Shown here piece after piece: positions 21,418 to 62,867 of a stretch of DNA of 64,000 nucleotides. The translations under genes were made by a program, and so were the position numbers. Origin of the DNA: Salipaludibacillus sp. LMS25 (lineage in GTDB: Bacteria > Bacillota > Bacilli > Bacillales > Salisediminibacteriaceae); the NCBI RefSeq assembly GCF_024362805.1, contig NZ_CP093299.1, forward strand, positions 992,001-1,056,000, written 5' to 3'. How positions within the stretch are numbered: the stretch's first letter is position 1; every line of letters starts with the position of its first letter. Below the pieces are notes generated by a model, which was not told the DNA's origin, did not search any database, and was given only the letters and a program-made list of their open reading frames with translations.

Positions 21418-21576
21418 TTTATCCCACTCTTAAGGGGCAGTAAAACCCCCACCTCAAAACTTAAGAAGAGCGAAACGTTTAGGTGGGGAATAAACTGCCC
21501 CTAAAGGTCCCATAAGTTAAACGAACAATCAGTGGGGGATGAAGGAAAACGCCCACTGATTGAAGCTTAGCTTTAT
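21418..21576 (-). repeat. type-1 hairpin repeat, copy A
   Basis: Full-length copy of the interspersed repeat in minus orientation. It starts ATAAAGCTAAGCTTCAATCA and ends CTTAAGAGTGGGATAAA. It contains the hairpin CAATCAGTGGG/CCCACTGATTG and a larger hairpin with arms AGGGGCAGT-x-CCCACCT and AGGTGGGGG-x-ACTGCCCCT. It lies between two minus-strand genes and fills most of this gap. Confidence 0.9.
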
Positions 21577-21608
21577 CAGTAGGTGGAGAATATTTGAGCT
21601 AATGTTTT

Positions 21609-21977
21609 TTAACACCAGCCCATATCACATCCTTCAACATATGACTGTGGATACTCCTTTTTTTTATTTTGAGTGTTCTTATAAAATTTTTCATTTTTAA
21701 ATTCAAATCCATCTGCCATTTCATAGTTATAACTATGCCCATTTTGTTTTAATTTGCCAATTTTTTCGGTTTGATAAAATAACGCCGTTTCGCCATCCTC
21801 TTCCTGTTTTTTTTCTATCTCAGATGAAATATCAACCAGGGCATCTTGCGCAATGATCGTTTCTTCTGATGATTCTTCTTTAACGGCGTCATCATCAGTA
21901 TTATTCGTCATCTCGTTTACCATTGCTAACGCCTCCTTCCACACCTTATCATGTAACTTTTTTTCTCCGTTATTCAC
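21609..21977 (-). CDS. hypothetical cytoplasmic protein
   Basis: A 122-residue soluble, acidic protein with a helical N-terminus (KLHDKVWKEALAMVNEMTNN). The middle is Glu-rich, and the C-terminal stretch FYQTEKIGKLKQNGHSYNYE is followed by a tail ending GCDMGWC. The two terminal cysteines (C-x4-C) are unusual for this compartment. No family is recognised. Its position between yusD-like and gcvH is where B. subtilis carries small yus genes of unknown function. Confidence 0.5.
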   Translation of the reverse strand: MNNGEKKLHDKVWKEALAMVNEMTNNTDDDAVKEESSEETIIAQDALVDISSEIEKKQEEDGETALFYQTEKIGKLKQNGHSYNYEMADGFEFKNEKFYKNTQNKKKEYPQSYVEGCDMGWC

Positions 21978-22088
21978 GAATAGGCGTGGGAGTTACAGGA
22001 AGTAGCAATATGAATGAAAACCATTTTCACTTTCGACAAGAAATAGAAAAAACGCCCTTCACCTTTAAAGGCAGTGGGCGTTCACACA

Positions 22089-22472
22089 TTAATCTTCTTT
22101 CGTCATTTCCTCGTATGCTGCTGCATCCATCAAATTATCTATTTCTGACTTATCAGATGGCTCCACAACAACCATCCAAGCTTTTTCATATGGAGATTCG
22201 TTTACAAATTCAGGTGAATCATCCAACTCTTCATTTACTTCTACAACTTTTCCACTGATCGGAGCATAGAGCTCAGATACCGTTTTAACAGACTCAACAC
22301 TCCCAAAAGGCTCGTCAGCTTCTAATTCGTCTCCTACTTCTGGTAACTCAACGAATACAATATCTCCTAGCTCTGATTGTGCAAAGTCTGTAATACCAAT
22401 CCTTACTTTACCGTCTTCTTCTTTAACCCACTCGTGCTCTTCTGAATACTTTAATTCTTTTGGTAAATCCAT
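22089..22472 (-). CDS. gcvH: glycine cleavage system H protein
   Basis: A 127-residue lipoyl carrier. The lipoylated lysine is K63 in [17 protein letters not shown], and the flanking [13 protein letters not shown] fits the family. It shuttles the methylamine group between glycine decarboxylase subunits. In Bacillus it is also the obligatory relay for lipoate attachment (LipM/LipL pathway). The ATG at 22472 has GGAGGGATAAAC in front; the longer frame includes that site and is rejected. No gcvPT genes are nearby, as in B. subtilis. Confidence 0.96.
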
Positions 22473-22609
22473 GTTTATCCCTCCGAGTATCATTTAAAGT
22501 AAGTGCTAAGATGGTGACATCTTAGTATGTATCACACAGCTTTCATCTGTCTCCACCCTACTATAATATATTTACAGAAAGGGGAGCAACAATGTTGATA
22601 AAAACGTCA

Positions 22610-22969
22610 TTATTTTTTCCACGTTTGTGTAAAAGTCTCTTCGTTAAAACCAACTGTCACGCTTTCGCCATCTGTTGTGAGTGGACGCTTAATCAGCATA
22701 CCATCTGAAGCAAGAACGGCTAATAATTCGTCCTCAGAAGCTGTTTTTACTTTGTCTTTCAAACCGAGTTCACGGTATTTTTTTCCACTTGTGTTAAAGA
22801 ATTTTTTTAGTTCTAGCCCACTTTTTTGATACATTTCCTGCAACTCATCTTTAGAAGGGGGGTTTTCGACAATATGGATTGCATCGTAGGCAATACCCTC
22901 GTTGTCTAACCATGCCTTTGCTTTCCGGCACGTGCCACACTTCGGATAATGATAAAATGTGATGCTCAT
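22610..22969 (-). CDS. ArsC/Spx family protein (YusI-like)
   Basis: A 119-residue thioredoxin-fold protein with the redox motif C11-x-x-C14 (YPKCGTCRKAKAWLDNEG) and the family's C-terminal LLIKRPLT motif (here MLIKRPLTTDG). It aligns with YusI of B. subtilis, which has the same neighbours (gcvH and fadE). It is probably a glutaredoxin-like oxidoreductase or regulator rather than a proven arsenate reductase. It lacks the residues that tether Spx to RNA polymerase as far as I can judge. Confidence 0.85.
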   Translation of the reverse strand: MSITFYHYPKCGTCRKAKAWLDNEGIAYDAIHIVENPPSKDELQEMYQKSGLELKKFFNTSGKKYRELGLKDKVKTASEDELLAVLASDGMLIKRPLTTDGESVTVGFNEETFTQTWKK

Positions 22970-23165
22970 CAGTGACCTCCTTTTTTTTGCATAACTTATG
23001 TTTACAGTTTACATTTTTTATTAGCATCCGAAATAGACACTTGATTATTCTTGTCTGTAAACATCGTAGTTAAATTCATTCTATCTTATTTTGTGAGGGA
23101 TATCACGAAAGATGCCTATCGCCTTATTTTATGGTAAAGATCCACTGTTTATTTTACATATGTAA

Positions 23166-23193
23166 GCGAGGCCTTAACGTAACGAGGCCTCGC
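23166..23193 (-). terminator. hairpin downstream of fadNAE
   Basis: GCGAGGCC (23166-23173) and GGCCTCGC (23186-23193) form an 8-bp GC-rich stem. A second hairpin TTTGGGACA/TGTCCCAAA lies at 23238-23262, just after fadE. Neither has a full U-run. Together they probably end or stabilise the fad transcript. Nothing else is seen in 22970-23278. Confidence 0.45.
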
Positions 23194-23278
23194 CATAAGA
23201 GAGAAGTATGCCTTCTACACTGAAAGAAGGATATTTTTATTTGGGACAGGGGAGTGTCCCAAAAAGAGATAACATGAT

Positions 23279-25060
23279 TTAAACAACGTATTTTTCTTGT
23301 TCTAATATTTTTGCGGCTAATGTTCGCTTTTTCTCGATCATATTTATCGGGGTATGTCTTGTTAATTTTTTTAAGATAGATAACATAGTACGCAAGTTAT
23401 CACCCTCTTCTAAAGCAACAAGAGATTCTTTAGCAATAGCCTCAATATCATTAAACGCTTCCTGGGTATATATTTGTGTCATAAGTAGCTTCTGAGTAGA
23501 TTTTTCTAATCCTTTGTTTTCAATCCCTTTTTCAGTTCTAAGGATACATGATTCTATATTAAAAATTTCATTAACAAGATCTGCCACATTGCTCAGAAGT
23601 TCCTGCTCTTTTTGTAACTTATCACCATACGTTTGAGCAGCAGTCCCTGCAATCATTAAAGCGATTTTCTTAGCATTTGCTAATAAATATTTTTCTTGTT
23701 CCAGAGGTTCATCTCCCACCTCTTCCGGCATCATCATCATGAGCTCTTCTTGTAATCCTCCTGCCTTTTCAAGTAAAGCAAGTTCACCTTTCATCGCTTT
23801 ACGCATAAGGGTTGCCGGCACTAACATACGATTAATTTCATTTGTCCCTTCAAAGATTCGATTAATCCGTGAATTTCGATACATAGATTCCACTTCATAT
23901 TCAGCCATAAAGCCGTAGCCTCCATGTATTTGAACTGCTTCATCCACCACAAAATCAAGAACTTCAGAACAGAAGAATTTATTTAAGGAACATTCTATCG
24001 CATAATCACTTATCGCTTTCCCCACTTTTGCCCCGTCTTGTTGGTCTTCTTCAGACAGTTGGGCAAAGGCAGCATCTATGAGTCCACCTGTTCGATAAAT
24101 CGTACTTTCAGCCGCATACGTCTTTACGGCCATTTCTGCCAGTTTCTTTTGAATGAGTGTAAACTTAGCAATCGGTACTTTGAATTGCTTGCGTTCATTA
24201 GCATAAGCTGCCGATACTTCAATTGCTCTTTTCGCACTTCCTACACAGCCAACACCTAATTTATAACGCCCAATATTAAGAATGTTAAAGGCGATCACGT
24301 GACCTTTCCCTATTTCACCTAGTACATTCTCCTTCGGCACAAGTGCCTCGTTAAGAATTAATGTTCTTGTAGAGGACCCCTTAATTCCCATCTTCTTTTC
24401 TTCTGTCCCTGTCGATACTCCTTCATAATCTTTTTCAACGATAAAAGCGGTAAAATGTTCTCCGTCGACTTTTGCATAAACGATAAAAACTTCAGCAAAT
24501 CCGGCATTTGTAATCCATTGTTTTTCTCCATTTAAAACGTAATGCGTTCCTGCCTCATTTAAAACAGCCGTTGTTTTTGCACTTAAAGCATCAGACCCTG
24601 AGCTCGGTTCGGTTAACGCATAAGCTGCGACCGTCTCCCCTGTAGCTAACCCTGGTAAATACGTTTTCTTTTGTGTTTCTGTGCCAAAAAACACAATTGG
24701 AAGGGATCCAATTCCCACATGGGCCCCATGCGTTAATGAAAAAGACCCTGCTATGGCAAATTTTTCAGTAATGAGTGTCGAACTTATTTTATCAAGCCCA
24801 ATACCGCCATATTGCTCGGGGACATCCGCTCCAAGAAGCCCTAGTTCACCTGCTTCTTTTAACAGCCTGACAGATCGGTCAAATTCATGATTTTCGATAA
24901 ATTCAACTTCCGGTACGACTTTCTCTTTAACAAAATCTTCTGTTGTTTTTGCAATCATGAGGTGTTCATCGGTAAAATCCTCTGGTGTAAAAATGTGATC
25001 TGCGGACGTGTCGTCTAACAGAAAACTACCGCCTTTTAACGTTTTGTCTGCCGTTTCCAT
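23279..25060 (-). CDS. fadE: acyl-CoA dehydrogenase FadE
   Basis: About 593 residues. This FAD enzyme introduces the trans-2 double bond in fatty acyl-CoA. Family motifs are YALTEPSSGSDALSAKT and NRIFEGTNEINRMLV. A C-terminal helical extension of about 170 residues is typical of Bacillus FadE (YusJ). The ATG at 25060 has GAGGAGG at 7-8 bases. It is last in the fadN-fadA-fadE operon and carries out the first oxidation step of the cycle. Confidence 0.93.
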   Translation of the reverse strand: METADKTLKGGSFLLDDTSADHIFTPEDFTDEHLMIAKTTEDFVKEKVVPEVEFIENHEFDRSVRLLKEAGELGLLGADVPEQYGGIGLDKISSTLITEKFAIAGSFSLTHGAHVGIGSLPIVFFGTETQKKTYLPGLATGETVAAYALTEPSSGSDALSAKTTAVLNEAGTHYVLNGEKQWITNAGFAEVFIVYAKVDGEHFTAFIVEKDYEGVSTGTEEKKMGIKGSSTRTLILNEALVPKENVLGEIGKGHVIAFNILNIGRYKLGVGCVGSAKRAIEVSAAYANERKQFKVPIAKFTLIQKKLAEMAVKTYAAESTIYRTGGLIDAAFAQLSEEDQQDGAKVGKAISDYAIECSLNKFFCSEVLDFVVDEAVQIHGGYGFMAEYEVESMYRNSRINRIFEGTNEINRMLVPATLMRKAMKGELALLEKAGGLQEELMMMMPEEVGDEPLEQEKYLLANAKKIALMIAGTAAQTYGDKLQKEQELLSNVADLVNEIFNIESCILRTEKGIENKGLEKSTQKLLMTQIYTQEAFNDIEAIAKESLVALEEGDNLRTMLSILKKLTRHTPINMIEKKRTLAAKILEQEKYVV

Positions 25061-25120
25061 CGTCATTCCTCCTCGAATCATTTAAATTGAACGCTTACAA
25101 TACAAAGGTTGGTACAGGGA

Positions 25121-26302
25121 CTAGAGTAACTCAAACACACCAGCGGCTCCCATTCCGCCTCCAATACACATGGTTACAACACCAAACTGTTCCTGTCTTC
25201 GCTTCATTTCATGCAAAAGGGTTAACGTCAATTTTGTTCCCGTACAACCGAGCGGGTGTCCAATAGCGATTGCCCCGCCATTGACATTCACTTTGTCATA
25301 ATCAAGTTTTAATTCTCTTATCACGTGTAAAGATTGAGAAGCAAATGCCTCATTAAGTTCAAATAATCCTATATCCGAGAGCTTAAGGCCCGCTAATTTG
25401 ACGGCTTTTGGAATAGCTTCTACTGGCCCTACCCCCATAATGTCCGGTGCTACACCTGCGACGGCGAATGAGCGAAACTTCGCTATAGGTGTCATTCTTT
25501 CCGCAATCGCCGTCTCCCGTTCCATCACGAGGACTGACGCCGCACCATCACTCATTTGTGAAGCATTTCCTGCTGTCACAGTTCCCCCCTTTGGTTGAAA
25601 GGCTGGTTTTAATGCTGCTAATGCTTCCACCGTTGTCTGTTCACGAATCCCTTCATCTTCTTGAATAATCACTTCTTTTTCACTTAATGTGTTTTTATCA
25701 TCCACAGCTCTTAACGTAACAGGAACTGGTACGATCTCATCAGAAAATTTCCCAGCTTTACGAGCTTCAGCAGCACGTCTATGACTTTCTGCTGCAAATG
25801 CATCTTGATCTTTGCGACTAATGTTAAAACGTTTGGCTACTTCTTCTGCTGTATGTCCCATTCCCATGTAATATTCAGGAGCATTTTCAACGAGTCTTAG
25901 ATTAGGCGCTATCACGTGTCCTCCCATAGGAATAAGACTCATAGATTCTGCTCCCCCAGCAATAATGGCTTCAGCGTGACCAAGCATAATTCTTTCTGCT
26001 GCGTACGCGATACTTTGCAAGCCAGATGAACAATAACGATTAATCGTGATGGCTGGCACTTGTTCAGGAAGACCTGCAAGCACGGAAGCAAAGCGGGCCA
26101 TATTCATACCTTGTTCTGCTTCTGGCATGGCACATCCAACTATTACATCGTCGATTCTTTCTGGTGATAAATCATTTGCTCGCTTCAACGTTTCCCTTAT
26201 GGTAATAGCCGCGAGATCATCTGGCCTAACTGCGGCGAAGCTTCCCTTTTTCGCTTTTCCTACAGGTGTTCTTGCACCTGTTACGATCACTGCATCTTTC
26301 AA
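25121..26302 (-). CDS. fadA: acetyl-CoA acyltransferase (3-ketoacyl-CoA thiolase) FadA
   Basis: About 393 residues. The nucleophile is C91 (NRYCSSGLQSIAYAAER), the His motif is GGAIAIGHPLGCTG, and the second active-site Cys is in TMCIGGGMGA. It releases acetyl-CoA in the last step of beta-oxidation. I start at the TTG at 26302, which has GGAGGGG at 7 bases. The frame continues upstream through the ribosome site. It lies 25 bases after fadN. Confidence 0.93.
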   Translation of the reverse strand: MKDAVIVTGARTPVGKAKKGSFAAVRPDDLAAITIRETLKRANDLSPERIDDVIVGCAMPEAEQGMNMARFASVLAGLPEQVPAITINRYCSSGLQSIAYAAERIMLGHAEAIIAGGAESMSLIPMGGHVIAPNLRLVENAPEYYMGMGHTAEEVAKRFNISRKDQDAFAAESHRRAAEARKAGKFSDEIVPVPVTLRAVDDKNTLSEKEVIIQEDEGIREQTTVEALAALKPAFQPKGGTVTAGNASQMSDGAASVLVMERETAIAERMTPIAKFRSFAVAGVAPDIMGVGPVEAIPKAVKLAGLKLSDIGLFELNEAFASQSLHVIRELKLDYDKVNVNGGAIAIGHPLGCTGTKLTLTLLHEMKRRQEQFGVVTMCIGGGMGAAGVFELL

Positions 26303-26327
26303 ATGATTCCCCTCCTTCACAGGTGAT

Positions 26328-28715
26328 TTAATTGCGTAACGGCTTCCCTTTTGTCAGCATATGTTGCATTCGCTGTTGTGTCTTTGGCTCTCCTGTTAAA
26401 CTTAAAAATGCTTCTCGTTCTATATCTAATAAATAGTCTTCATCCACTTCAGTGCCTTTCGGTACGCGACCACCAGCAATAACAAAAGCTAACTTTTCTG
26501 CAATTTTCATATCGTGGTCTGATAAAAGTCCACTGAATTTCATTGATTTTGCTCCAAGAAGCATTGTGGCATAACCTGATTCCCCAACGACTCGTATTTT
26601 CTTACGTGTTGGTGGGCGATACCCTTGTGCAGCTAAGTGCCGGACACTTTCCTTAGCATCATGTAAAAGATGGTCGTTATTAATACTAATACCATCCTGT
26701 GGTCTTATAAACCCATATTCAGCAGCTTCCTGCGCACTCGTGCTTACCTTCGCCATTGCGATCGTCTCAAATACGTTATTCGCAATCGCTTGATAATCAC
26801 TAATGGCCCCTTGCGGCAAACGTTCTACCTGCCTGAGGTAAAGCTCTTTATTGCCACCACCTCCTGGAATCAGTCCCACACCCGTTTCTACTAATCCCAT
26901 ATACGTTTCCATTGAGGCTTGAATACGTGCCGATGGCAGACAAATCTCCGTTCCACCGCCTAGTGTCATGGCAAAGGGGGCACTCACAACTGGTTTAGCA
27001 GAGTAGCGAATAGCTGTCATCGCTTTTTGAAATTGGCGCACAACGAGATCTATTTCTGGAAAATTCATGTCTTGTGCTTCCATCAATATCATCATCAAAT
27101 TGGCACCGACACAAAAGTTTTTACCTTGATTATTAATTACGAGCCCTTGATAGTTTTTTTCTACTTCTTCAATTGATTTATTAATCATTTGTAAAACATC
27201 GAGTCCAACTGAGTTATTTCGTGAGGTAAATTCAAGGCATGCTACGTCATCACCTATATCAATTAAGGCAGCGCCAGTATTTTTCATAATGACCTGGTCA
27301 TTTTCCTTAAGAGTAGCAAGGTTAATCACTTTTGAATTGAACTTTACCGATTTATACTCTCCTTGGTGATAATAAGAGTGCCTATCTTTATAAAAGCGAG
27401 TGAATCCTTCCTCAAGCATCGTATCAATCCATGGAGGTATTGTGTCCCCTTCTTTTTTCATCCGATTAACAGAGTCTTCAACCCCTATAGCATCCCATGT
27501 TTCAAACGGCCCCAACTCCCAGCCAAAGCCCCATTTCATCGCTTGATCAATATCATATAGTGAATCAGCCACTTCACCGCACTTTTCCGCTGCATAGAGC
27601 AGTGTTGGCTTTAACACGCTCCACACGAGCTCTCCCGCTCGATCGTCAGCGTATACAAGCGCTTTCATTTTACTAGCTTTGCCTTTCGCCTGTTTGCTCT
27701 TTTCCACAGAGGATGCAGTTAATTTCTGTCTCGGTTCATATGTCATTTTTTTGTAATTAAGTTCTAGAATCTCACTGCCCTTTTCACTTTTTTCCTTATA
27801 ATAAAATCCTTGTCCTGTTTTACTCCCAAGCATTTTTTTATGTGCCATGTCTTTCATAAAAGCAGGTGGATCAAACATCTCCTTTTCCTTGCCTTCTACC
27901 TGATCATAAACATTTTTCGCCACATGCAGGAATGTATCCAGCCCTACCACATCCAAGGTTCTAAACGTCGCGCTTTTAGGCCGACCAAGAACAGGCCCTG
28001 TGACAGAGTCAACTTCTCCAATGCTGTAACCACGAGCTTCCATTTCCCGTACTGTCACTAACAGCCCATAAGTACCAATCCGATTAGCAATAAAGTTAGG
28101 CGTATCCTTCGCTTCAACAACTCCTTTCCCTAATGTGTTTTCTGCGAATTGTTTCATATATTCAAAGATTTCATCTGACGTATCTTTTGTACGAATTAAT
28201 TCAAGCAGCTTCAAATACCTCGGTGGATTAAAGAAATGTGTACCTAGAAAGTGCCGTTTAAAATCATCTGACCTTTCTTCTGCCATGGCTTCGATCGAAA
28301 TTCCTGACGTATTTGAACTGACCACTGTCCCTTTTTTTCTGTATTTATCAACTGTTGCGAACACGTCTTTTTTTACTTCAAGGTTTTCAGTGACGACTTC
28401 AATAATCCAGTCTACTTCTGAAAGGCGTGGCATGTCGTCAGCCATGTTTCCAGCTTCAATTAAATCTGCGTTACTTTTCTTCGCTAATGGAGCAGGTTTT
28501 TGTTTTCTCAACTGTTGGATGGACGCAGCGGCTAACCGATTTCTAACCTGTTTGTCGTTAAGAGTCAGACCTTGTTTCTTTTCTTTCTCAGACAAATCTT
28601 TTGGCAAAATGTCAAGTAATAATGAGGGTATGCCAATATTGGCTAAATGAGCAGCAATAGCTGAGCCCATAATTCCTGATCCCAATACAGCAACCTTTTT
28701 AATTGTTCGTGACAT
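26328..28715 (-). CDS. fadN: bifunctional 3-hydroxyacyl-CoA dehydrogenase/enoyl-CoA hydratase FadN
   Basis: A 795-residue multifunctional protein. The N-terminal Rossmann domain has VAVLGSGIMGSAIAAHL (residues 9-25) and the dehydrogenase helical domains follow (FLGTHFFNPPRYLKLLELI). A C-terminal crotonase domain starts near residue 500 (GLVINNQGKNFCVGANLMM, MTLGGGTEICLPSARIQ, GLIPGGGGNKELYL). It performs hydration and the second oxidation of beta-oxidation. AAAGGAGG precedes the ATG. First gene of the operon, under the FadR box at 28740. Confidence 0.95.
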   Translation of the reverse strand: MSRTIKKVAVLGSGIMGSAIAAHLANIGIPSLLLDILPKDLSEKEKKQGLTLNDKQVRNRLAAASIQQLRKQKPAPLAKKSNADLIEAGNMADDMPRLSEVDWIIEVVTENLEVKKDVFATVDKYRKKGTVVSSNTSGISIEAMAEERSDDFKRHFLGTHFFNPPRYLKLLELIRTKDTSDEIFEYMKQFAENTLGKGVVEAKDTPNFIANRIGTYGLLVTVREMEARGYSIGEVDSVTGPVLGRPKSATFRTLDVVGLDTFLHVAKNVYDQVEGKEKEMFDPPAFMKDMAHKKMLGSKTGQGFYYKEKSEKGSEILELNYKKMTYEPRQKLTASSVEKSKQAKGKASKMKALVYADDRAGELVWSVLKPTLLYAAEKCGEVADSLYDIDQAMKWGFGWELGPFETWDAIGVEDSVNRMKKEGDTIPPWIDTMLEEGFTRFYKDRHSYYHQGEYKSVKFNSKVINLATLKENDQVIMKNTGAALIDIGDDVACLEFTSRNNSVGLDVLQMINKSIEEVEKNYQGLVINNQGKNFCVGANLMMILMEAQDMNFPEIDLVVRQFQKAMTAIRYSAKPVVSAPFAMTLGGGTEICLPSARIQASMETYMGLVETGVGLIPGGGGNKELYLRQVERLPQGAISDYQAIANNVFETIAMAKVSTSAQEAAEYGFIRPQDGISINNDHLLHDAKESVRHLAAQGYRPPTRKKIRVVGESGYATMLLGAKSMKFSGLLSDHDMKIAEKLAFVIAGGRVPKGTEVDEDYLLDIEREAFLSLTGEPKTQQRMQHMLTKGKPLRN

Positions 28716-28739
28716 AAAGTACCTCCTTTAATTATTTTT

Positions 28740-28757
28740 TGAATGAATATTCATTCA
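28740..28757. promoter_or_regulatory. FadR operator
   Basis: TGAATGAATATTCATTCA is a perfect palindrome matching the Bacillus FadR consensus TGAATGAxTAxTCATTCA. It sits 25 bases before the fadN start, so long-chain acyl-CoA should relieve repression of fadNAE. Confidence 0.92.
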
Positions 28758-29359: not shown

Positions 29360-29374
29360 AGAGGAGGGATTTAG

Positions 29375-30452: not shown

Positions 30453-31754
30453 TTAAGAGCTTTTCTTTAAAAAACCTGTGTATTTTCTGTCAATAAGTTG
30501 GCTTTCAATTTGCTTCATTGTGTCAAGCGCCACCCCTACCACAATTAATAACCCTGTTCCTCCGATTTGAACAGCTGAAGGTAAGCCAGCTATTTGTGCA
30601 AACAAGATCGGTAAAATAGCAATTGTCGCAAGGAAAATAGAGCCTACGAATGTTAATCGATACAACACTTTCACAATGAATCTTTCCGTGGATTTTCCAG
30701 GTCTCACGCCAGGAATAAACCCATTTTGTTTTCTCAAGTTATCGGCCATCTGCTCAGGATTCATTTGAACCATCGTATAGAAATAAGAAAAAGCAATAAT
30801 AAGCAGAGCATAAATAACCATACCTGCCGGATGCGTGTAATCAAATACTTTAATCACCCAGCGAGCAACATCGTTTTGCTCCCCCACAATTCGGGCAATT
30901 GTAGAAGGAAAGATAAATAATGCCATTGCAAAGATAACAGGAATAACACCAGCGGCATTAACTTTTATCGGTATATGTGAAGCATCACCACCCGTAGGTT
31001 TCCTTCCAGAAATGAGTTTCTTAGCATATTGGATAGGTACTTTTCTAATGGCTTGTTGCACGAAAATAACGCCCACAACAAGACAAAGGATTGCAAGTAA
31101 TATAAGAAGAACTGTAATGACATTTAAAAATAGGCCATCCCCTGCATCTGCAAAATAAATGGTATAAAGTTGCATAACACCATTAGGTATGCCAGCTGCA
31201 ATTCCAGCAAAAATCATAATTGAGATCCCGTTCCCTACTCCTTTAGCGGTGATTTGCTCACCAAGCCAGAGTAAAAAGGCAGTCCCTGCTGTTAATACGA
31301 GAGCGATTGTTAAATATGTGATTACCGAAGGGTTAGGTACAAGCCCTGGCATAATATTATTAAATCCCATCGATAAACCGATTGCTTGTACAAAGGCAAT
31401 GACAATCGTACTGTAGCGAGTCACTTGAGCTAGTTTTTTCCGCCCTGCTTCTCCCTGCTTCGACCATTCGGAGAACTTTGGAACCACATCCATACGTAAC
31501 AACTGTACAATAATAGAAGCTGTAATATAAGGCATAATTCCAGTAGCAAAAATTGAGAAATTCTCTAAAGCCCCTCCACCAAACGCATTTAAAAAACCAA
31601 GAGCTCCCAGCCCATCAAAATTCAGGACATCTGCGTTTACACCTGGAGCAGGAATATGGGCCCCAATACGAAAGACAATTAATAATGACAAGGTAAAGAA
31701 AATCTTTTTACGTAAATCTTTCATTTTAAATATATTACTAATAGATTGAAACAT
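30453..31754 (-). CDS. secY: protein translocase subunit SecY (stand-alone copy)
   Basis: About 433 residues with ten membrane helices. Family hallmarks are FRIGAHIPAPGVN near the start, the plug/TM2 region AFGGGALENFSIFATGIMPY, RKVPIQYAKK, and ADNLRKQNGFIPGVRPG. It forms the Sec channel with SecEG. It stands alone here, with no ribosomal protein, adk or map genes, whereas housekeeping secY sits in the spc operon. It is therefore probably a second SecY. I use the ATG at 31754; a GTG three codons upstream is inside the AGGTGG site. Plug and hinge look intact, so it should be functional. Confidence 0.88.
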   Translation of the reverse strand: MFQSISNIFKMKDLRKKIFFTLSLLIVFRIGAHIPAPGVNADVLNFDGLGALGFLNAFGGGALENFSIFATGIMPYITASIIVQLLRMDVVPKFSEWSKQGEAGRKKLAQVTRYSTIVIAFVQAIGLSMGFNNIMPGLVPNPSVITYLTIALVLTAGTAFLLWLGEQITAKGVGNGISIMIFAGIAAGIPNGVMQLYTIYFADAGDGLFLNVITVLLILLAILCLVVGVIFVQQAIRKVPIQYAKKLISGRKPTGGDASHIPIKVNAAGVIPVIFAMALFIFPSTIARIVGEQNDVARWVIKVFDYTHPAGMVIYALLIIAFSYFYTMVQMNPEQMADNLRKQNGFIPGVRPGKSTERFIVKVLYRLTFVGSIFLATIAILPILFAQIAGLPSAVQIGGTGLLIVVGVALDTMKQIESQLIDRKYTGFLKKSS

Positions 31755-32169
31755 TGTGGCCACCTCATAATATTAAGACGTATGTATATTTTTACTAATT
31801 TATAGAATACCATAAATTTCAACGAAAGCTAGTCTCTTTTTGCATTTTCGACAAAAGTGATATTATTTCGCCAATTCGTGAGCGTTTTCAAGCTCTGTGT
31901 TTAATTATTTTCACTATCACACTCTAAAGAGAAAAAACCATCCGGTCAGGGATGAAAGGGAAACTTGGTGGGGAAATTCACGACTGCGTTTCCATATACT
32001 GAGGGACTGAATAACTGAGGGAGAAAACGTGTGACTGAGCTCCATATTAGAGGTGGATCGAGTAACTAAGCGAGGCAACTCTAGCTAAGTTTTCCTGGCT
32101 GAGACGGACTTAGTGTGAGTCTTAACATACCTGAACCAACATCTATATTTCAGATTTTTTATGCAACAT
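31755..32169. other. gap with degenerate tandem motif
   Basis: No gene is visible. On the minus strand, between 31930 and 32110, two near copies of a unit of about 32 bases occur: CTTAGTTACTCGATCCACCT and CTCAGTTATTCAGTCCCTC, each followed by a TATGGA stretch. They look like a decayed repeat. The rest is featureless. Confidence 0.35.
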
Positions 32170-32330
32170 AAAGCTAAGCTTCAATCAGTGGGAGATTTCC
32201 TTCATCCCTCCCACTGATTGTTCATTTAACTTATGGGACCTTTAGGGGCAGTTTATCCCCCACCTAAACGTTTCGACCTTCTAAAGTTTTGAAGTGGGGG
32301 TTTTACTGCCCCCTTAAGAGTGGGATAAAA
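32170..32330 (+). repeat. type-1 hairpin repeat, copy B
   Basis: Full copy from AAAGCTAAGCTTCAATCAG to CTTAAGAGTGGGATAAA, with both hairpins. It is bordered by ATAAA on each side as in all copies. It is directly followed by a type-2 repeat. Confidence 0.9.
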
Positions 32331-32334
32331 CGAA

Positions 32335-32483
32335 CCTTCAATCAGTGAGAGTCCGTTCTTCTCCTACTGATTGAAGGTTGAGTGAATCAGGACCTGAGCG
32401 TCCATTATCTCCCGCCTATGTAGATTTTTCTCTCTTCTCTCTTCTCTCTTTTCAGGCCGGAGTTTTTCTGGCGGTTAGCTGTG
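32335..32483 (+). repeat. type-2 hairpin repeat
   Basis: It starts CTTCAATCAGTGAGAGTCCG and continues with a loop and CTACTGATTGAAGG, then GTTGAGTGAATCAGGAC, CTCCCGCC and, after a TCTCTTC-rich spacer, GCCGGAG...GGCGGTTAG. It shares the opening hairpin with type-1 repeats but has a different second half. Other copies are at 41217 and 61483. Confidence 0.75.
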
Positions 32484-40178: not shown

Positions 40179-40361
40179 AAATAAAACGTCTCCCTGCTTT
40201 AAATAGACAGAGAGACGAATGCATGACAACTTCCGCTCTCTTATCTCTCAAAGTGCCGCTACACTTTGTTGGAATTGGCACCTTACGTGGCACGTTTCCG
40301 TACGCACGCTGGTTGCCGGGTTTCATCGGGCCAGTCCCTCCACCTCTCTTGATAAGAGCTT
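40179..40361 (-). ncRNA. SAM-I riboswitch proximal to metY, with terminator
   Basis: The aptamer (about 40234-40361) on the minus strand has CTTATCAAGAGAGGTGGAGG, ACTGGCCC, GAAACCCGGCAACC, AAGGTGCCAATTCC and closing GAGATAAGAG. The terminator at 40179-40217 is CGTCTCTCTGTC pairing with CAGGGAGACG, followed by TTTTATTTT. It should shut the metY operon when SAM is high. Confidence 0.95.
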
Positions 40362-40367: not shown

Positions 40368-40395
40368 ATTATGAAATTATAAAGCTAAGCTTCAA
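40368..40395 (-). promoter_or_regulatory. putative promoter for the proximal riboswitch, -35 inside repeat C
   Basis: TTGAAG (40390-40395) lies in the left end of repeat copy C. A 16-base spacer and CATAAT (40368-40373) follow on the minus strand. The start would fall at the first base of the aptamer region. No better promoter is visible here. Confidence 0.4.
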
Positions 40396-40538
40396 TCAGT
40401 GGGAGTTTTCCTGCATCCCCCAATGATTGTTCGTTTAACTTATCGGACCTTTAGGGGCAGTTTATCCCCCACCTAAACTTTTCGACCTTCTTAAGTTTTG
40501 AGGTGGGGGTTTTACTGCCCCTTAAGAGTGGGATAAAA
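40381..40538 (+). repeat. type-1 hairpin repeat, copy C
   Basis: Full copy between the two SAM riboswitches. It runs from AAAGCTAAGCTTCAATCAG to TTAAGAGTGGGATAAA. The first hairpin has a one-base change (CCCCAATGATTG). Confidence 0.9.
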
Positions 40539-40693: not shown

Positions 40694-40893
40694 AAAAAAC
40701 TCCCTTACAAAATGTAAGGGAGTTTAACGTAAATGTTTGCAAAAGTAGCTGCATTGACATGTCGTCCTTATCTCCCAAAGCATTCAGCAATGAATTCTTT
40801 GCAGGAATTAGCACCTTGCGAAAAAAAGATCTCTCTTCTTCTCACTGGTTGCCGGGCTTCGTCGGGCCAGTCCCTCCACCTCTCTTGATAAGC
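40694..40893 (-). ncRNA. SAM-I riboswitch distal to metY, with terminator
   Basis: The aptamer (about 40764-40893) on the minus strand has CTTATCAAGAGAGGTGGAGG, ACTGGCCC, GAAGCCCGGCAACC, AAGGTGCTAATTCC and closing GGGAGATAAGG. The terminator at 40694-40725 is AAACTCCCTTACATTTTGTA followed by AGGGAGTTTTTT. There is no gene between it and the second riboswitch 330 bases on, so the two act in series on metY, or this one has lost its gene. Confidence 0.93.
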
Positions 40894-40968
40894 AAAACGA
40901 TGAGTCGTCCAAATGAGCATCACGTTTCAATGTCATCTATTCTGGACGCTATTTATAATATTGAGGAA

Positions 40969-45992: not shown

Positions 45993-45993
45993 T

Positions 45994-46433: not shown

Positions 46434-46609
46434 TTAATTTGCATTGGAAATGTATGCTTCCAAAAACTCTCGGTACTTTAAGCTTCCAACTAAGTGATGA
46501 TTAATAATGTCATTATAATCATCTTTATCGAGATCTTGAATTAATCCACCTGTATCTGAATGCATATCATCACGAATCTCGGTTAATAAATCCTTAACTG
46601 AATGTAAAT
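46434..46609 (-). pseudogene. C-terminal gene fragment next to repeat D
   Basis: An open frame without a start reads LHSVKDLLTEIRDDMHSDTG then GLIQDLDKDDYNDIINHHLV and SLKYREFLEAYISNAN. It looks like genuine coding sequence, 58 codons long. Its upstream side ends exactly at repeat copy D (46610), so the repeat seems to have cut the gene, or a deletion joined them. Family unknown. Confidence 0.45.
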
Positions 46610-46731
46610 AAAGCTAAGCTTCAATCAGTGGGTGTTTTCCTTCATCCCCCACTGATTGTTAGTTTAACTTATGGGACCTTTAGGGGCAGTTTATCCCCCA
46701 CCTAAACTACTGCCCCTTAAGAGTGGGATAA
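46610..46731 (+). repeat. type-1 hairpin repeat, copy D (internal deletion)
   Basis: It starts AAAGCTAAGCTTCAATCAG and ends TTAAGAGTGGGATAAA. About 35-40 bases between CACCTAAACT and ACTGCCCC are missing, removing the right inner arm of the large hairpin. The 3-base identity ACT at the joint suggests slippage. Confidence 0.88.
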
Positions 46732-46757
46732 ACTGTTTCCTCTGGCCTTAATGACAG

Positions 46758-54937: not shown

Positions 54938-54973
54938 TGCTGCTACTCTTCTAAATTAGAAGAGTAGCAGCAT
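54938..54973. repeat. 36-bp palindrome upstream of the ABC-2 operon
   Basis: ATGCTGCTACTCTTCTAA and ATTAGAAGAGTAGCAGCAT form a stem of about 17 bp with almost no loop. No U-run follows on +. It lies 40 bases before the first permease start, so it could be a leader hairpin or an operator. Confidence 0.6.
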
Positions 54974-55013
54974 TATCCGTGACAATAGAAGATGTGAAAG
55001 TGAGCGAAGTGCC

Positions 55014-57410: not shown

Positions 57411-57435
57411 ATTGAAAAAGAAAGGCGTGTAACTT

Positions 57436-58077
57436 ATGGCCCTTGCGATAAAAGTAAAGGATTTATCTAAATCCTTTAAAGGTGAAGCTATTTTTTCAAA
57501 TATTAACTTAGATATCGAGGTAGGTAAGATCTATGGCTTTACAGGCCACAACGGCTGTGGAAAAACCGTTTTATTTAAAATTCTCTGTGGGGTCATTTTC
57601 CCTGACAGTGGGGAGATTACTATTATGAATAAAACGCTTGGAAAGGATATAGATTTCCCCAATAATGTAGGTGCCATTATCGAAACCCCTGGCTTTCTCA
57701 CTGATTATTCAGGATTTAAAAACTTAAACTATTTAGCATCTATTAGACAGATGATTGACGACGAGCAAATTAAAGAAGCTATGAAAAAAGTCGGTTTGGA
57801 GCCAGATAGTAAAAAAAGTGTTAAAAAATATTCGTTAGGCATGAAGCAACGCTTGGGCATTGCTCAAGCCATTATGGAGAATCCTAAAATTTTAATTATG
57901 GATGAACCTATGAACAGCCTTGATAAAAGTGGCGTTAAACAAATAAGAGAATTACTCTTATCCTTAAAACAACAAGACACAACGATTTTAATGACGAGCC
58001 ATATGGCTGAGGATATTAATATTCTATGTGACCACGTTTATGAGTTTGATCAACAGACACTTATTAATGTGAAATAA
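57436..58077 (+). CDS. ABC-2 exporter ATPase
   Basis: A 213-residue ATPase with Walker A GHNGCGKTVLFKIL, signature YSLGMKQRLGIAQAIM and Walker B ILIMDEPMNSLD. The class resembles CcmA/BcrA/SkfE-type exporters used in peptide immunity or drug export. It lacks the C-terminal extension of BcrA. It should power the three permeases upstream. A role in bacteriocin immunity or envelope stress is plausible but not shown. Confidence 0.85.
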   Translation: MALAIKVKDLSKSFKGEAIFSNINLDIEVGKIYGFTGHNGCGKTVLFKILCGVIFPDSGEITIMNKTLGKDIDFPNNVGAIIETPGFLTDYSGFKNLNYLASIRQMIDDEQIKEAMKKVGLEPDSKKSVKKYSLGMKQRLGIAQAIMENPKILIMDEPMNSLDKSGVKQIRELLLSLKQQDTTILMTSHMAEDINILCDHVYEFDQQTLINVK

Positions 58078-58147
58078 CTATTATGGTAGAAACTAAAAGC
58101 GACGTATAATTGATACTAGACTAAAAATAGACACAGACAGTTATCAT

Positions 58148-58305
58148 AAAGCTAAGCTTCAATCAGTGGGCGTTTTCCTTCATCCCCCACTGATTGTTCG
58201 TTTAACTTATGGGACCTTTAGAGGCAGTTTATCCCCCACCTAAACTTTTCGATCTTCTTATGTTTTCAGGTGGGGGTTTGACTGCCCCTTAAGAGTGGGA
58301 TAAAA
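58148..58305 (+). repeat. type-1 hairpin repeat, copy E
   Basis: Full-length copy between the ABC-2 operon and the CobW pseudogene. ATAAA borders it on each side. Small changes affect the arms (GAGGCAGT for GGGGCAGT). Confidence 0.9.
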
Positions 58306-58329
58306 TCGAATAATCGTAACGAGGTAGGT

Positions 58330-58830
58330 CTATTGACTGAGGAAACAGGAAAGGTCGTTGAAAACATCTTCAAAAAAAGAAACGGTCAAAATCACCTACC
58401 TAGTAGAGAATCACATAGTCATTAAACAAGCGACGAGGGCGATAAATATAAACGAACATCCAGTACGATTACGTCAGTGGAGGGAAGAATGGCCTGAAGA
58501 AGTGGTGCGTGCAAAAGGCTTCCTTTGGATTGCAACTCAGAATTCCACCGCTGCTCTTGTTTCTCAAACCGGCTCAATTGTCACGCTGCAATGGGGTAGG
58601 CAAATGGATAGCTGCTCTCAATAAAAAAGAACAAGAGCAACTATTAAATAGAGGAACCAGAACTTCGCAACAAGTGGGATGACCAATTTGGTGACAGGCA
58701 GACAGAGCTTGTCCTCATTGGCATCGATATGAATCAAGCGGACGTCACTGAATCTCTAGATCAGTGTTTGTTAACGGATGACGAGATGACGATAGATTGG
58801 AACACCCTCCCTGCCTTTGTTGAGGGTTAA
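58330..58830 (+). pseudogene. CobW-family GTPase (metallochaperone), C-terminal ruin
   Basis: Pieces in different frames give the CobW C-terminal domain: REEWPEEVVRAKGFLWIATQ NSTA, then EEPELRNKWDDQFGDRQTEL, VLIGIDMNQADVTESLDQC and LLTDDEMTIDW. The relatives are ZagA/YciC-type zinc chaperones. At least two frameshifts and internal stops are present. The GTPase N-terminus (Walker A) is absent. It is a dead gene, adjoining repeat E. Confidence 0.75.
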
Positions 58831-58834
58831 TAAA

Positions 58835-58873
58835 CGAGGCTGTAAGCATGACTATCTCACAGCCTCGTTTCCC
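58835..58873. terminator. terminator hairpin
   Basis: CGAGGCTGT and ACAGCCTCG form a 9-bp stem with a 15-base loop, followed by TTTCCC. It ends the pseudogene transcript and may also serve the convergent nucleotidase gene. Confidence 0.6.
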
Positions 58874-58891
58874 TTATCATCCTCAAATCAA

Positions 58892-59419
58892 CTAACTTCC
58901 TAAAAAATACGCTCTAACGTCCTGCCAGTTATCGACCCGTGGATAGCCTGTTTCGTGTATATTATGATGGGCAGTATACAAAATCCCTTGCCCACTAAAT
59001 CGTTTAAAGTGCCTCACGTTATCATCAATCAGATAATCAGCATGAATAATACTTTTATCCCCGCAAAAAACAAAATTCAAGTCATTTAAGAAACTAAAAT
59101 GTTCTTTTAACCACTCATATTTAGCGGTGAAAGAGGTGGGGAATTCCATCGCTGCTGTCGTAATAAAAATCTCATAATGCTCATGTAAGTCACGAATGAC
59201 TTCCTGACTGTCCGGCATAACAGCAAGATCACGAAAGAAGGATGGTTCTCTTAAATAGTTACCCAACTGTTCAACGTGATCAGACCGTAACTCACGAAGC
59301 TTTTTGCCTTGTAAATCATTAATGGTGATATTTTCTCCATTATCGTCATTAAATAACTTCAAATGTTTCGGCATAAAATCAGCCATAACCTCGTCCATAT
59401 CGATGGCAATTCGTTTCAC
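58892..59419 (-). CDS. 5'(3')-deoxyribonucleotidase
   Basis: A 175-residue HAD-superfamily enzyme of the NT5C type. The nucleophile/acid motif is IAIDMDEVMADF (residues 4-15). Further motifs are IFITTAAMEFP and FVFCGDKSIIHADYLIDDN (motif IV acids). It dephosphorylates deoxynucleoside monophosphates. The GTG at 59419 has GGAGG at 8 bases. A tiny ORF upstream overlaps this start by 3 bases. Confidence 0.88.
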   Translation of the reverse strand: MKRIAIDMDEVMADFMPKHLKLFNDDNGENITINDLQGKKLRELRSDHVEQLGNYLREPSFFRDLAVMPDSQEVIRDLHEHYEIFITTAAMEFPTSFTAKYEWLKEHFSFLNDLNFVFCGDKSIIHADYLIDDNVRHFKRFSGQGILYTAHHNIHETGYPRVDNWQDVRAYFLGS

Positions 59420-59550
59420 CTTGTTGACCTCCTATGTTTAGGTGTAGTGGTATTTATTCGTTCCGCATCCTTAATTACCTTTACGATTTTAATGGTCCCC
59501 CCGCTGGAAACATGCCAATGTAAATGCTCGATCTTAAAAATCTCTATCAC
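59416..59550 (-). CDS. possible 44-residue leader ORF
   Basis: A GTG at 59550 opens a frame reading MIEIFKIEHLHWHVSSGGTI then KIVKVIKDAERINTTTPKHR and ends at TGA overlapping the nucleotidase GTG. No ribosome site is visible at its own start. The overlap could couple translation, but a chance frame is equally likely. The bases 59551-59849 hold nothing clear. Confidence 0.22.
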   Translation of the reverse strand: MIEIFKIEHLHWHVSSGGTIKIVKVIKDAERINTTTPKHRRSTR

Positions 59551-59849
59551 TATCTGTCAGCTAAAAAGGATTGCCCCTCTCTTCTAGCACAAATAAATAG
59601 GAAATATACCGTTTAGAAATGACAACATATGAACTGGTTAAAGCGGTAGTGTATCAAAAACTACTCATACATTATCCATTTCTAACACTATGCCCGTAGC
59701 AATTTCCTCAGTGATTCCCTTCATCACAGAAGTCATCTGTCATTAGCTACCTCCGAAAAGCACAGCTAAGTAATCCCGTTAGACAGCACTTTTTACTGTC
59801 ATGGCCCGACACCTTCACCATCAAGCTCGTTATCATACATTGTACAGCT

Positions 59850-60377
59850 CTAATGAGTGGTTTTTGGTTTCTTATTACAACGCCAGCCTTTTTTTCGTAA
59901 CTGTTTTGCAATTAACCTATTGAAAACACCATGACCTACAAGCACGACAGAGCCCTCTTTTTCAGCATAAGAGATAAGTTTGGCAGCTACTTTTCCAGAT
60001 TCTTGCAATGATTCACATCCTTTTGTCACCCCTACAAGCCACAGACTCCGTAAGAGAACAAGCCATATAGATGGACGCAGTTTAACCAAACTTGGGAAAA
60101 AATAAGGTATCGGCAATTCTGCTTCTCGAAATAGCGAATCTACCTCTCTATTACTGTCAGAATTCAAGACATCTGCTGATTCAATAGCTCGTGTAAAATC
60201 ACTGGTTACAACTAAGGACGACAGTGTAACAGCTTTTATTGTATCAGAAGGATACGTTTCTGCTTCCCTAATGCCACTTTTATTGTAAGCCTCTATCCAC
60301 TGGCTCACCTGCGCCTTCGTTATAGGGATAGCATCACGATGACGTAATACCTCATGCCTGATTAATGCCATTCTCAT
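59850..60377 (-). CDS. histidine phosphatase (phosphoglycerate mutase-like) protein
   Basis: A 175-residue protein of the histidine phosphatase fold. It starts LIRHEVLRH, in place of the classic R-H-G. SSLVVTSDFTRAIESADVL carries the second Arg, FREAELPIPYFFPSL the acid region, and GSVVLVGHGVFNRLIAKQL the second His. RHE instead of RHG is tolerated in some members. Substrate unknown. It lies 30 bases after the NTF2-like gene and is probably cotranscribed. Confidence 0.75.
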   Translation of the reverse strand: MRMALIRHEVLRHRDAIPITKAQVSQWIEAYNKSGIREAETYPSDTIKAVTLSSLVVTSDFTRAIESADVLNSDSNREVDSLFREAELPIPYFFPSLVKLRPSIWLVLLRSLWLVGVTKGCESLQESGKVAAKLISYAEKEGSVVLVGHGVFNRLIAKQLRKKGWRCNKKPKTTH

Positions 60378-60407
60378 TTTTCTCTCCTTAACTGATAAAT
60401 CACTAGA

Positions 60408-60776
60408 TTACGGCAAAGGACTTAAGTGCTCATGGATCAATTTCCAATCACCACTTTCATCTACGACAAACACATTTGTTGCCCGGCCGCTTCCAGTGAC
60501 AAAACGCCCTTCAATATAACCTTCATACTTATATGTATACGTACATACCGCCGTCGTATCCGTTGCTGTGAGCCACATCACGTCTTTTGCTTCGTAGATC
60601 TCATTTTTGACTATGTGCCACGCTTGCTCGAAATACTGCTGTATGTCTTCATGCGTTGTACACGTTTTATCCGTAAACCAATACACCGCCTCGGGATGCA
60701 GCACCTGAGCAACCTCTTCAAATTGATGTGAATTTGTCGCTTTAATATAAGCTTCTAACGCAGATTGATAGGTCAT
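60408..60776 (-). CDS. NTF2-like (SnoaL-type) protein
   Basis: A 122-residue alpha+beta barrel protein: ALEAYIKATNSHQFEEVAQV, LHPEAVYWFTDKTCTTHEDI and GSGRATNVFVVDESGDWKLI HEHLS. This is the pattern of nuclear transport factor 2-like domains, which bind or convert small molecules. Catalytic residues cannot be assigned. AGGAGGCAACC precedes the ATG. Confidence 0.78.
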   Translation of the reverse strand: MTYQSALEAYIKATNSHQFEEVAQVLHPEAVYWFTDKTCTTHEDIQQYFEQAWHIVKNEIYEAKDVMWLTATDTTAVCTYTYKYEGYIEGRFVTGSGRATNVFVVDESGDWKLIHEHLSPLP

Positions 60777-61482
60777 TGGTTGCCTCCTAAATGATTTTTA
60801 TTATACTTTTATTAATCAATTTAGCTTTTCTATCAATAACATTTGATAATAACGACAGTTTCCCAATCTCTTTTACTCAAATTGATTGTTAATCTGTATA
60901 AAAGTCATACGCATTGATACCCTATGTTCTTCCACATGTAAAGTCCTGGGAATAGCGCGATTTGAGCTCCGTACTCGATTCTCAACAAAAAGTATGTCTA
61001 GCAGCCATTTCTCTTCAAAAATTTCCTATGCTTCTTTCGATGAGGTGCACCCATGATCATTAAATCTTTCATTAGCTGTTAATCCAACTTCATGCTGGTG
61101 TACAAGACTTTATAAAATCACCCTCACACCCCAAGTTCGTTTCTTGTGATTCACCGATAAACATATTTCCCCAATCTATTCACGACACCTTCCTTTCTAT
61201 TTGACTGAATTATACTTAATTAGAATAACAATTATTTTCCTAATTCATTTTAGCATATATAACCATCGAATATCTTTTTTAAACATAGGTCTTAATACCT
61301 CCGAACAATAAACTATTAGACCTCCAAATAATAAAATAGCGTCTTTTTTTGTAAAAGATAATCATATATACTTATTTATCCCTAAGCTGTATTCATTTAA
61401 TATTATTAGTTGTGCTTCTAAAAATAACACAAGTATTAGTTACTTAAAGTTTATTCGCAACCTCAACATATTTCCAAAAGGA
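60777..61482. other. long gap without recognised gene
   Basis: The minus strand at about 60960-61110 has a broken frame (GLTANERFNDHGCTSSKEA, stop, EIFEEKWLLDILFVENRV) that may be an old gene. Otherwise the sequence is AT-rich with stops in all frames. Confidence 0.3.
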
Positions 61483-61580
61483 TAAAGCTAAACTTCCATC
61501 AGTGGGAGTTTTCGTTCTTCTCCCACTGATTGGTAATTGAGTAAATCAGGGACATTAGCGTTCGCTATCTCTGTGATAAA
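61483..61580 (+). repeat. type-2 hairpin repeat, partial
   Basis: It starts ATAAAGCTAAACTTCCATCA, then GTGGGAGTTTTCG, TCTCCCACTGATTGG, TAATTGAGTAAATCAGGGAC, ATTAGCGTTCGCTATCTC. Its left end equals that of type-1 repeats, linking the two families. The right half is missing. Confidence 0.75.
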
Positions 61581-61690
61581 AAAAGCAATGGCGTTGTTTA
61601 TGCCACAAGTAGCCTACTTTCATTTTGATTCATGGTGGTGTAAATCTCAAATAAAATTCGAAATGATATTAGAAAGCGACTGATTTTTAT

Positions 61691-62794
61691 ATGGTAGAAA
61701 TCGATTTTTTTAGCATCCTCTCTTTAACTTTATTGGCTTTAGCGTTGTACTATTTTATTTACCTTTTCCATCATACATCTAACAAAAACTATCTCTTTTT
61801 AATTGCAATTGTTATAATAAATGCCCTTGGTCATTTTAATGTCATGAACCTCTATATTTTAAATATTTCAGCCAGTATTGTCGCTTTTGGAAGCTTTCTT
61901 TTTGAAAAGCGTCGCACTTGGCTTTACCTTGTTTTTTGCTACCTCTCTTATACAATGTTTCTTTATTTTTACTGGCTAACATGGAATGATTATTTTTTTT
62001 ATGGCAGCATAGTTATTAAGATAATCAAAATCTTTTTTGTAATTAGATTAATAAATGAGCTTTATAAGGAACCGCTTCCACATAAACAAATTATTCGAAG
62101 AAAAAATAAATTCGAGCGCATGTCAAACAAATCCAAAATCAACTATTTAAATCGATTATTGAAACATACTCCCGAGCGTGAAAACTATCTTGTACGAGCT
62201 AATGTTTTTAAAGCTATGGGTAACTATAAAGCAGCTGAAGCCGATTATCGCCAAGTTATCGACTTGGCACCAAGTCATTTTTCCGGATATTTCAATATTG
62301 GTTTATTATATATGGAACAAAAGGATTACAATGAATCTATAGCACAATTTAGCAAAGCTCTTGATTTGGCTAAAGGTAATGATAAAGCAAGAATTTATTT
62401 CAATAAAGCCCTGTCTTACTATCATCTTGGAAATTATCAAAAAGCTTTACAGGATGTTAAAAAAAGTCAGAAGAAATTTCCCGGGGATGTGGACATTTTT
62501 ATACTTCGGGCCCGTCTTTTTCTTGCTATGGGTCATCTTCACAAGGCCTTAACCGAAATCAGAACAGCTCTTACTACAATTCAACAATACCAACTTGATA
62601 ATAAAGAGGAAGTCAAAGCTAAAACGCTAATATTGTACGCTGAACTCCTTGCCAAACAAGATAAAAAAACATCCACTAATAAATCTGATAAAAAAATTAT
62701 TAAAATGATAACTGAAGCGCGCCAGCTTGGCTTTTCAGAAGAAAAACTTAATAAGATCTATCAACTAAAACCTTACCTATCAAGAATTCAATAG
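61691..62794 (+). CDS. membrane protein with C-terminal TPR domain
   Basis: A 367-residue protein. Residues 1-125 hold five or six hydrophobic helices (for example LFLIAIVIINALGHFNVMNL). A basic linker (IIRRKNKFERMSNKSKINYL) follows. Residues about 165-300 carry four tetratricopeptide repeats: NYLVRANVFKAMGNYKAAEA, SGYFNIGLLYMEQKDYNESI, ARIYFNKALSYYHLGNYQKA and VDIFILRARLFLAMGHLHKA. TPRs bind protein partners, here on the cytoplasmic side. No family name recognised. The ribosome site is weak. Confidence 0.7.
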   Translation: MVEIDFFSILSLTLLALALYYFIYLFHHTSNKNYLFLIAIVIINALGHFNVMNLYILNISASIVAFGSFLFEKRRTWLYLVFCYLSYTMFLYFYWLTWNDYFFYGSIVIKIIKIFFVIRLINELYKEPLPHKQIIRRKNKFERMSNKSKINYLNRLLKHTPERENYLVRANVFKAMGNYKAAEADYRQVIDLAPSHFSGYFNIGLLYMEQKDYNESIAQFSKALDLAKGNDKARIYFNKALSYYHLGNYQKALQDVKKSQKKFPGDVDIFILRARLFLAMGHLHKALTEIRTALTTIQQYQLDNKEEVKAKTLILYAELLAKQDKKTSTNKSDKKIIKMITEARQLGFSEEKLNKIYQLKPYLSRIQ

Positions 62795-62814
62795 AAAACA
62801 AAACATTAGTCGAT

Positions 62815-62867
62815 AAAGCTAAGCTTCAATCAGTGGGGGTTTTACTGCCCCTTAAGAGTAGGATAAA
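62815..62867 (+). repeat. type-1 hairpin repeat, copy F (large internal deletion)
   Basis: Only 53 bases remain: AAAGCTAAGCTTCAATCAGT directly joined to GGGGGTTTTACTGCCCC and TTAAGAGTAGGATAAA. The joint lies in the GTGGG-x-GTTTT sequence that occurs twice in a full copy, so recombination between these direct repeats explains it. From 62868 to 63082 nothing is recognised. Confidence 0.88.

Follow-up and report, generated by a model that had tools for sequence, protein, structure and literature searches.

The bcr1 repeat of the Bacillus cereus group is about 155 bp long and carries TTTAT at both ends. Its length has been given as 147 in the literature column of one study and as 167 in the study itself (PMC2267715), it has been counted among the bacterial miniature inverted-repeat transposable elements (MITEs) (PMC3733652), and its occurrence is reported to be limited to that group (PMC6542083). 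As for its movement, the accessible portion of the bcr literature names solely a possible site-specific recombination at TTTAT. Another point of reference is the IS200/IS605 elements, which insert 3′ of a fixed short target. The Y1 transposases recognise subterminal secondary structures, and the lagging-strand template has been described in connection with them (PMC6006769).

Here we describe a short gene-less repeat, the type-A element, in a 64-kb window of Salipaludibacillus sp. LMS25 (bases 992001-1056000 of the single 4.53-Mb contig, G000 hereafter), where an initial annotation had listed six copies. The family has hundreds of copies in this genome, inserts at TTTAT-like sites and shows a strand bias towards the lagging-strand template, and an internally deleted form of 50 bp spreads on its own. 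We think it probable, with a good deal of reserve, that this is a non-autonomous element which, like those of the IS200/IS605 type, inserts as a single strand into the lagging-strand template, 3′ of TTTAT.

Copy number and orientation towards the replication fork

Hundreds of further copies were found when the search was extended to the whole genome. With one copy as query there were at least 42 matches, 40 of them at 95 percent identity or more, only 40 of the 692 first-look places being scored. The exact pattern of the hairpin H1 occurs 293 times, and 864 kb of sampled sequence contains 138 merged matches, full and partial, which scale to about 700 genome-wide, a rough extrapolation since half of the 40 stretches in the sample were picked near the origin and terminus. 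Median nearest-neighbour identities among copies are 96.6 percent in G000 (60 copies used) and 91.2 and 95.6 percent in two relatives of the same genus, G001 (18) and G005 (11), values that are suggestive at most, the sets from the relatives being non-random best matches to a window copy. Taken together, the copy number, the unrelated flanks and the empty sites in relatives support the non-autonomous mobile element that had been proposed in the initial annotation.

The origin and terminus were set from dnaA, at 1.890 Mb, and from the GC skew, which takes negative values at 1.80 Mb and positive ones from 1.95 Mb on, and drops to about zero near 4.20 Mb. The active strand was defined as the one reading TTTAT and then CCCACTC...GCTTTAT (element boundaries after the first and the last TTTAT), and a copy was taken to run with the fork when this strand lies within the lagging-strand template. 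This is so for 128 of 142 type-A copies in the union of listed and sampled sets (73/82 listed copies, 70/78 sampled full copies) and for 44 of 57 partial or type-B copies. When 107 copies were divided by length, 79 of 86 full copies and all 14 miniatures were found to follow the fork. Judged by local GC skew, stretches of three other genomes obey the same rule, with ratios of 22:1 in G005, 7:2 in G001 and 29:7 in G019, which belongs to another genus.

The ratio of copies with and against the fork is 12:2 in convergent, 15:1 in divergent, 24:4 in co-directional and 8:1 in head-on gene contexts, as counted on 67 copies after dropping those that overlap short open reading frames (ORFs) and those without a gene on one side. 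Genes run co-directionally with the fork in 544 of 707 cases; since the bias is seen in every gene context, it is not a shadow of transcription. Nor does the supply of targets explain it: between genes, the lagging template holds fewer TTTAT, if anything, than the other strand (589 against 708).

Window copies, borders and empty sites

The six copies in the window are real, their end motifs occurring beyond chance: the left end AAAGCTAAGCTTCAATCAG is exact at six places (0.05 expected), and the right end CTTAAGAGTGGGATAAA is exact at five (0.37 expected) and has one mismatch at 62851. Two further left ends carry 2-3 mismatches (61484, 32327), while a right end with three mismatches at 45993 is probably a chance match. 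ATAAA was seen at both borders of all six copies, as first described. The members, with the two ends of one of them, are as follows.

21418-21576, minus strand: full-length type-A element with TTTAT/ATAAA at both borders; empty site in G001 and G005.
21418-21502, plus strand: left end of the proposed active strand of copy 21418, with the TTTAT target, CCCACTCTTAAG and H2 (AGGGGCAGT...ACTGCCCCT).
21526-21576, plus strand: right end of the proposed active strand of copy 21418, with H1 (CAATCAGTGGG/CCCACTGATTG), the AAGC-TTA-GCTT foot and the terminal TTTAT.
32168-32329, plus strand: full-length type-A element adjoining a type-B element at a common ATAAA.
32325-32440 (right limit approximate), plus strand: related type-B element (family D6), sharing ATAAA 32325-32329 with type-A copy 32168.
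40379-40537, plus strand: full-length type-A element; empty site with TTTAA in G001 and G005.
46608-46732, plus strand: shortened type-A element (125 bp) that has lost the inner part of its large hairpin.
58146-58304, plus strand: full-length type-A element.
61482-61580 (right limit by eye), plus strand: diverged related element, the seventh member.
62813-62867, plus strand: miniature, a 5-bp border and a 50-bp element that has lost both hairpins, one of 70 genome-wide pattern matches; TTTAT-bearing empty site in G005.

Copy 21418 is the sole one in the window against the fork rule, which the other five of the six obey. The four full-length copies (159-162 bp including both borders) agree with the original description of a two-hairpin repeat of about 160 bp; those of 125 bp (46608-46732) and 55 bp (62813-62867) do not. 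The type-A element codes for no ORF, and none of the six copies overlaps a listed ORF of at least 90 amino acids, as expected of the ORF-free intergenic repeats first described; in the larger sample this is not without exception, six copies overlapping short predicted ORFs.

The modal element is 154 bp long (47 of 107 two-ended copies), to which the 5-bp border is added. The flank-side pentamer, which is the proposed target, is TTTAT in 98 of the 107, and the element-side pentamer in 102. When the motifs exclude the borders, TTTAT is the flank-side pentamer of 96 copies among the 107; the 11 deviants, three of which stem from a shifted left end, include eight whose element side is still TTTAT. 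The paired pentamers are compatible with a target duplication and with an element-borne TTTAT; these one-sided deviations favour the latter.

Comparison with orthologous stretches gave clean empty junctions for four of 27 elements (16 alignments; outside these four elements the alignments were too gapped or the relative was occupied), with one pentamer at the empty site and two at the occupied one. The empty site of copy 21418 reads CTTAT and that of copy 40379 TTTAA, each in both G001 and G005; for copy 62813 a single TTTAT is present in G005, and for the copy at 3579229 of G001 the site in G000 is T-rich.

The 50-bp form has no stable hairpin (fold z -0.35). Its pattern, allowing up to three mismatches, occurs genome-wide 70 times in G000, 5 times in G001 and 15 times in G005, and zero times in five other genomes of the genus; in G000, 61 of the 70 run with the fork. 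Nine of these 70 carry a base change to CAGG that is absent from all 86 full copies (Fisher p 0.0005; the motif missed 12 of the 86, which were read by eye). The nine have unrelated flanks, and TTTAT precedes seven; a private change in such flanks means that the 50-bp form multiplies independently. Those of the nine that run against the fork lie at 30774, 1242600, 1308109 and 2777523 of G000.

Other features of the window were noted. Three SAM riboswitches (RF00162) are on the minus strand at 20717-20826, 40238-40358 and 40765-40894, the last two of which flank type-A copy 40379. BsrG RNAs (RF01412), presumably type I toxin-antitoxin RNAs, occur in tandem on the minus strand at 63144-63394 and 63544-63810, within a duplicated stretch (families D3 and D4). 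A two-gene insertion sequence on the plus strand at 5372-7589 resembles, as we take it, IS21 istA/istB; its second gene has six equal-score genome matches and a seventh, shorter one, with no consistent fork orientation by eye.

Hairpins, candidate enzyme and rival explanations

Covariance analysis on 27 diverse sequences revealed a conserved structure in which 96.0 percent of cells pair and 10 pairs have changed at both positions. Covariation scores 0.213, where shuffling gives a mean of 0.080 and slid partners reach 0.077 at most. H1 is nearly invariant and the inner hairpin H2 covaries. Overlapping the terminal TTTAT is a small foot hairpin whose stem, read by eye, is AAGC/GCTT here and AAGT/ACTT in many of the other sequences.

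In the reading favoured here, the moving strand would read TTTAT followed by CCCACTCTTAAGGGGCAG...CCCACTGATTGAAGCTTAGCTTTAT, an element of about 154 bp plus a 5-bp border. When a replication fork exposes that strand as lagging-strand template, the element would insert 3′ of a TTTAT-like pentamer; it would probably carry its own TTTAT as its final five bases and may take a single-stranded "peel and paste" pathway. The leading candidate for the enzyme would be a Y1 HUH transposase of the IS200/IS605 type, acting in trans.

A Y1 enzyme behind the movement of the repeat is suggested. Y1 transposases are present in 39 of 48 repeat-bearing genomes of the class, G000 included, versus 178 of 350 others (p 8e-5, uncorrected for phylogeny). 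Of the six Y1 matches in G000, four are intact TnpA genes of the IS200 type, identical to one another, and two are remnants. With the boundary taken from aligned copies, the IS200 is inserted after TTTAT in three of the four copies and after TTTTT in the fourth, and all four intact genes run with the fork. Two of the copies (L031 and L034, at 1704857 and 3942745 of G000) are situated no more than about 10 bp upstream of a type-A repeat.

Several candidates for a parent were examined and rejected. The genome's own IS200 is not the direct source, as its ends differ, and the degenerate TnpA genes that lie near repeats, at 321398 and 2533685, are remnants of IS200. A minus-strand candidate in G000 (offset 3095 of the joined stretch) has an interruption of about 0.4 kb with a broken frame and was taken as an insertion into the repeat; this frame resembles, we presume, the start of an insertion-sequence transposase. 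This candidate is one of eight left ends, among the stretches of 1.504 Mb described below, that lack a right end within 230 bp, and by eye these are tandem, truncated or diverged copies.

A number of observations weigh against insertion by an IS200/IS605-like route. The repeat-rich genomes G001 and G005 (233 and 283 first-look places) gave no Y1_Tnp match, on which account a Y1 transposase as a strict requirement was set aside, and nine of the 48 repeat-bearing genomes are without a Y1 match, seven of them inferred from absence among the 217 positives. No cognate TnpA with ends matching the repeat was found in the genome, whose four intact IS200 copies have other ends and hairpins unlike those of the repeat, and the searched stretches of G000, G001 and G005 (1.504 Mb, a minor part of each genome) contain no autonomous copy. 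The 50-bp form amplifies although it has no stable hairpin, unlike what the need of Y1 enzymes for subterminal structure would lead one to expect. The nine CAGG miniatures follow the fork just 5:4 (Fisher p 0.013 versus the other miniatures, post hoc) and seven copies of intermediate length merely 3:4. Finally, TTTAT at both sides is also what a target duplication of 5 bp would leave if the target sequence were fixed. A broader proposal, tentative and in our estimation less than probable, is that of a Bacillales-wide gene-less superfamily moving through lagging-strand DNA by a non-Y1 enzyme, for which 50 bp and no stable hairpin would suffice.

The rival that survives best, although we judge it unlikely, is duplex insertion in both orientations by a TTTAT-specific recombinase or transposase, selection later purging one orientation, for instance because the hairpins disturb the fork. 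Such an enzyme would suit the border pentamer, which is alike on both sides in most copies, and the missing Y1 match in G001 and G005, yet the 50-bp form, which has no hairpin to disturb the fork, obeys it in the proportion given above, and the bias is present in all four gene contexts. The structured RNA that the initial annotation had set beside a mobile element, be it a terminator, an mRNA stabiliser or a small RNA under RNA-level selection with mobility secondary, seems improbable and was not supported as the main interpretation. The fold is strong as RNA (z -5.5), H2 has compensatory changes, and about half of the bcr repeat copies are reported to be expressed in B. cereus (PMC3446304), but the stem mismatches in 91 sequences (G.T 43, A.C 53) are balanced with no favoured strand, so that neither strand bears an RNA signature, the orientation is independent of transcription, and no Rfam match was found at the window copies. 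A classical DDE MITE with terminal inverted repeats and a 5-bp TTTAT target duplication is hardly credible: the repeat is small, gene-less and of high copy number, with a 5-bp repeat at both borders and with Bcr1 classed among the bacterial MITEs (PMC3733652), but terminal inverted repeats are absent (one end, once reverse-complemented, agrees with the other at 6-8 of 20 bases), so that the annotated MITE in the strict sense is unsupported, and both the TTTAT kept on the element side of most deviant copies and the strong fork bias speak against it.

Distribution and comparison with known systems

The family extends far past the B. cereus group. An exact hairpin scan of named genomes matched at least 120 stretches, and among the 80 matches listed are Sporosarcina, Lysinibacillus, Oceanobacillus, Cytobacillus, Niallia, Neobacillus, Peribacillus, Evansella, Anaerobacillus and other genera, as well as Paenibacillus sp. 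FJAT-29882; none of these 80, which include several "Bacillus sp.", has a B. cereus-group species label. ATAAA is at the expected spot before H1 in 77 of 81 hairpins, and 48 of the 81 belong to a complete element of 140-172 nt by the end motifs, the rest having inserts, running off the locus end or being degenerate. In a sample of the class, a covariance model detected members in 28 of 146 genera, or 48 of 398 genomes; inside the genus there are matches in G000, G001 and G005 but not in five other genomes. Plasmid searches with four different element queries returned no B. cereus-group record, and neither phage searches with two element queries nor a hairpin scan of viral contigs gave a match. 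A partial element, comprising the H1 side at 79-82 percent identity, is present in the Klebsiella grimontii plasmid pNY3A (CP079755.1, 221561-221640; L392), which may reflect ancient transfer, chance or an assembly mixture.

At some loci of other genera, the Bacillaceae-1 RNA (RF01690) is located inside the element, adjoining H1; it is absent from the window copies. The scan covered 18 loci, 16 picked by eye for an insert and two without one, and gave 11 matches in nine loci (L161, L164 (inverted), L192, L206, L207, L209, L219, L230 and L234) and none in seven insert-bearing and the two insert-free loci. The RNA looks like a nested passenger and not the element itself, and the nested position gives this RNA of unknown role a context.

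With the REP/REPIN sequences and their RAYT transposases the repeat has in common that it is short, palindromic, intergenic and of high copy number. Unlike a REPIN, it is not built of two inverted REPs, and the modal copy is without GTAG, CTAC, CGTC and GACG, each of which occurs in just 3-7 of 86 copies; as the Y1 matches are IS200 copies and remnants, the REPIN comparison made at the outset found no support. The likeness to IS200/IS605 (IS608, ISDra2) consists in the absence of terminal inverted repeats, in subterminal structures and in the lagging-strand template (PMC6006769). Hairpins are present at both ends in full-length copies, not in the 50-bp form, and unlike IS200/IS605 the repeat has no transposase gene, nor was a TnpA with matching ends found.

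Among published repeats bcr1 comes nearest, likened to the present family by description alone: a small repeat with a predicted structure, a TTTAT motif, mobile features (PMC6542083) and tens of copies per genome. The present family resembles it in length (154 bp plus the 5-bp border), in the TTTAT at both ends, in intergenic position and in being structured. The earlier statement that no named family could be recognised is sustained in that Rfam has no match at the window copies, and needs amending in that the repeat is very like bcr1 as published. Among the open-access papers retrieved, subscription literature being outside the scope, no title or abstract opening mentions a fork orientation of bcr-like repeats or their occurrence outside the B. 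cereus group, and the hairpin string was found in no paper. Unlike bcr1 with its reported restriction, the present family is found in many other Bacillales genera. The fork orientation and the 50-bp form are features of the present family that the accessible bcr1 descriptions do not contain. The 50-bp form narrows down the cis-acting ends, and the fork orientation seen in four genomes is a direct lead, open to test, towards a single-strand pathway for a bcr1-like repeat.

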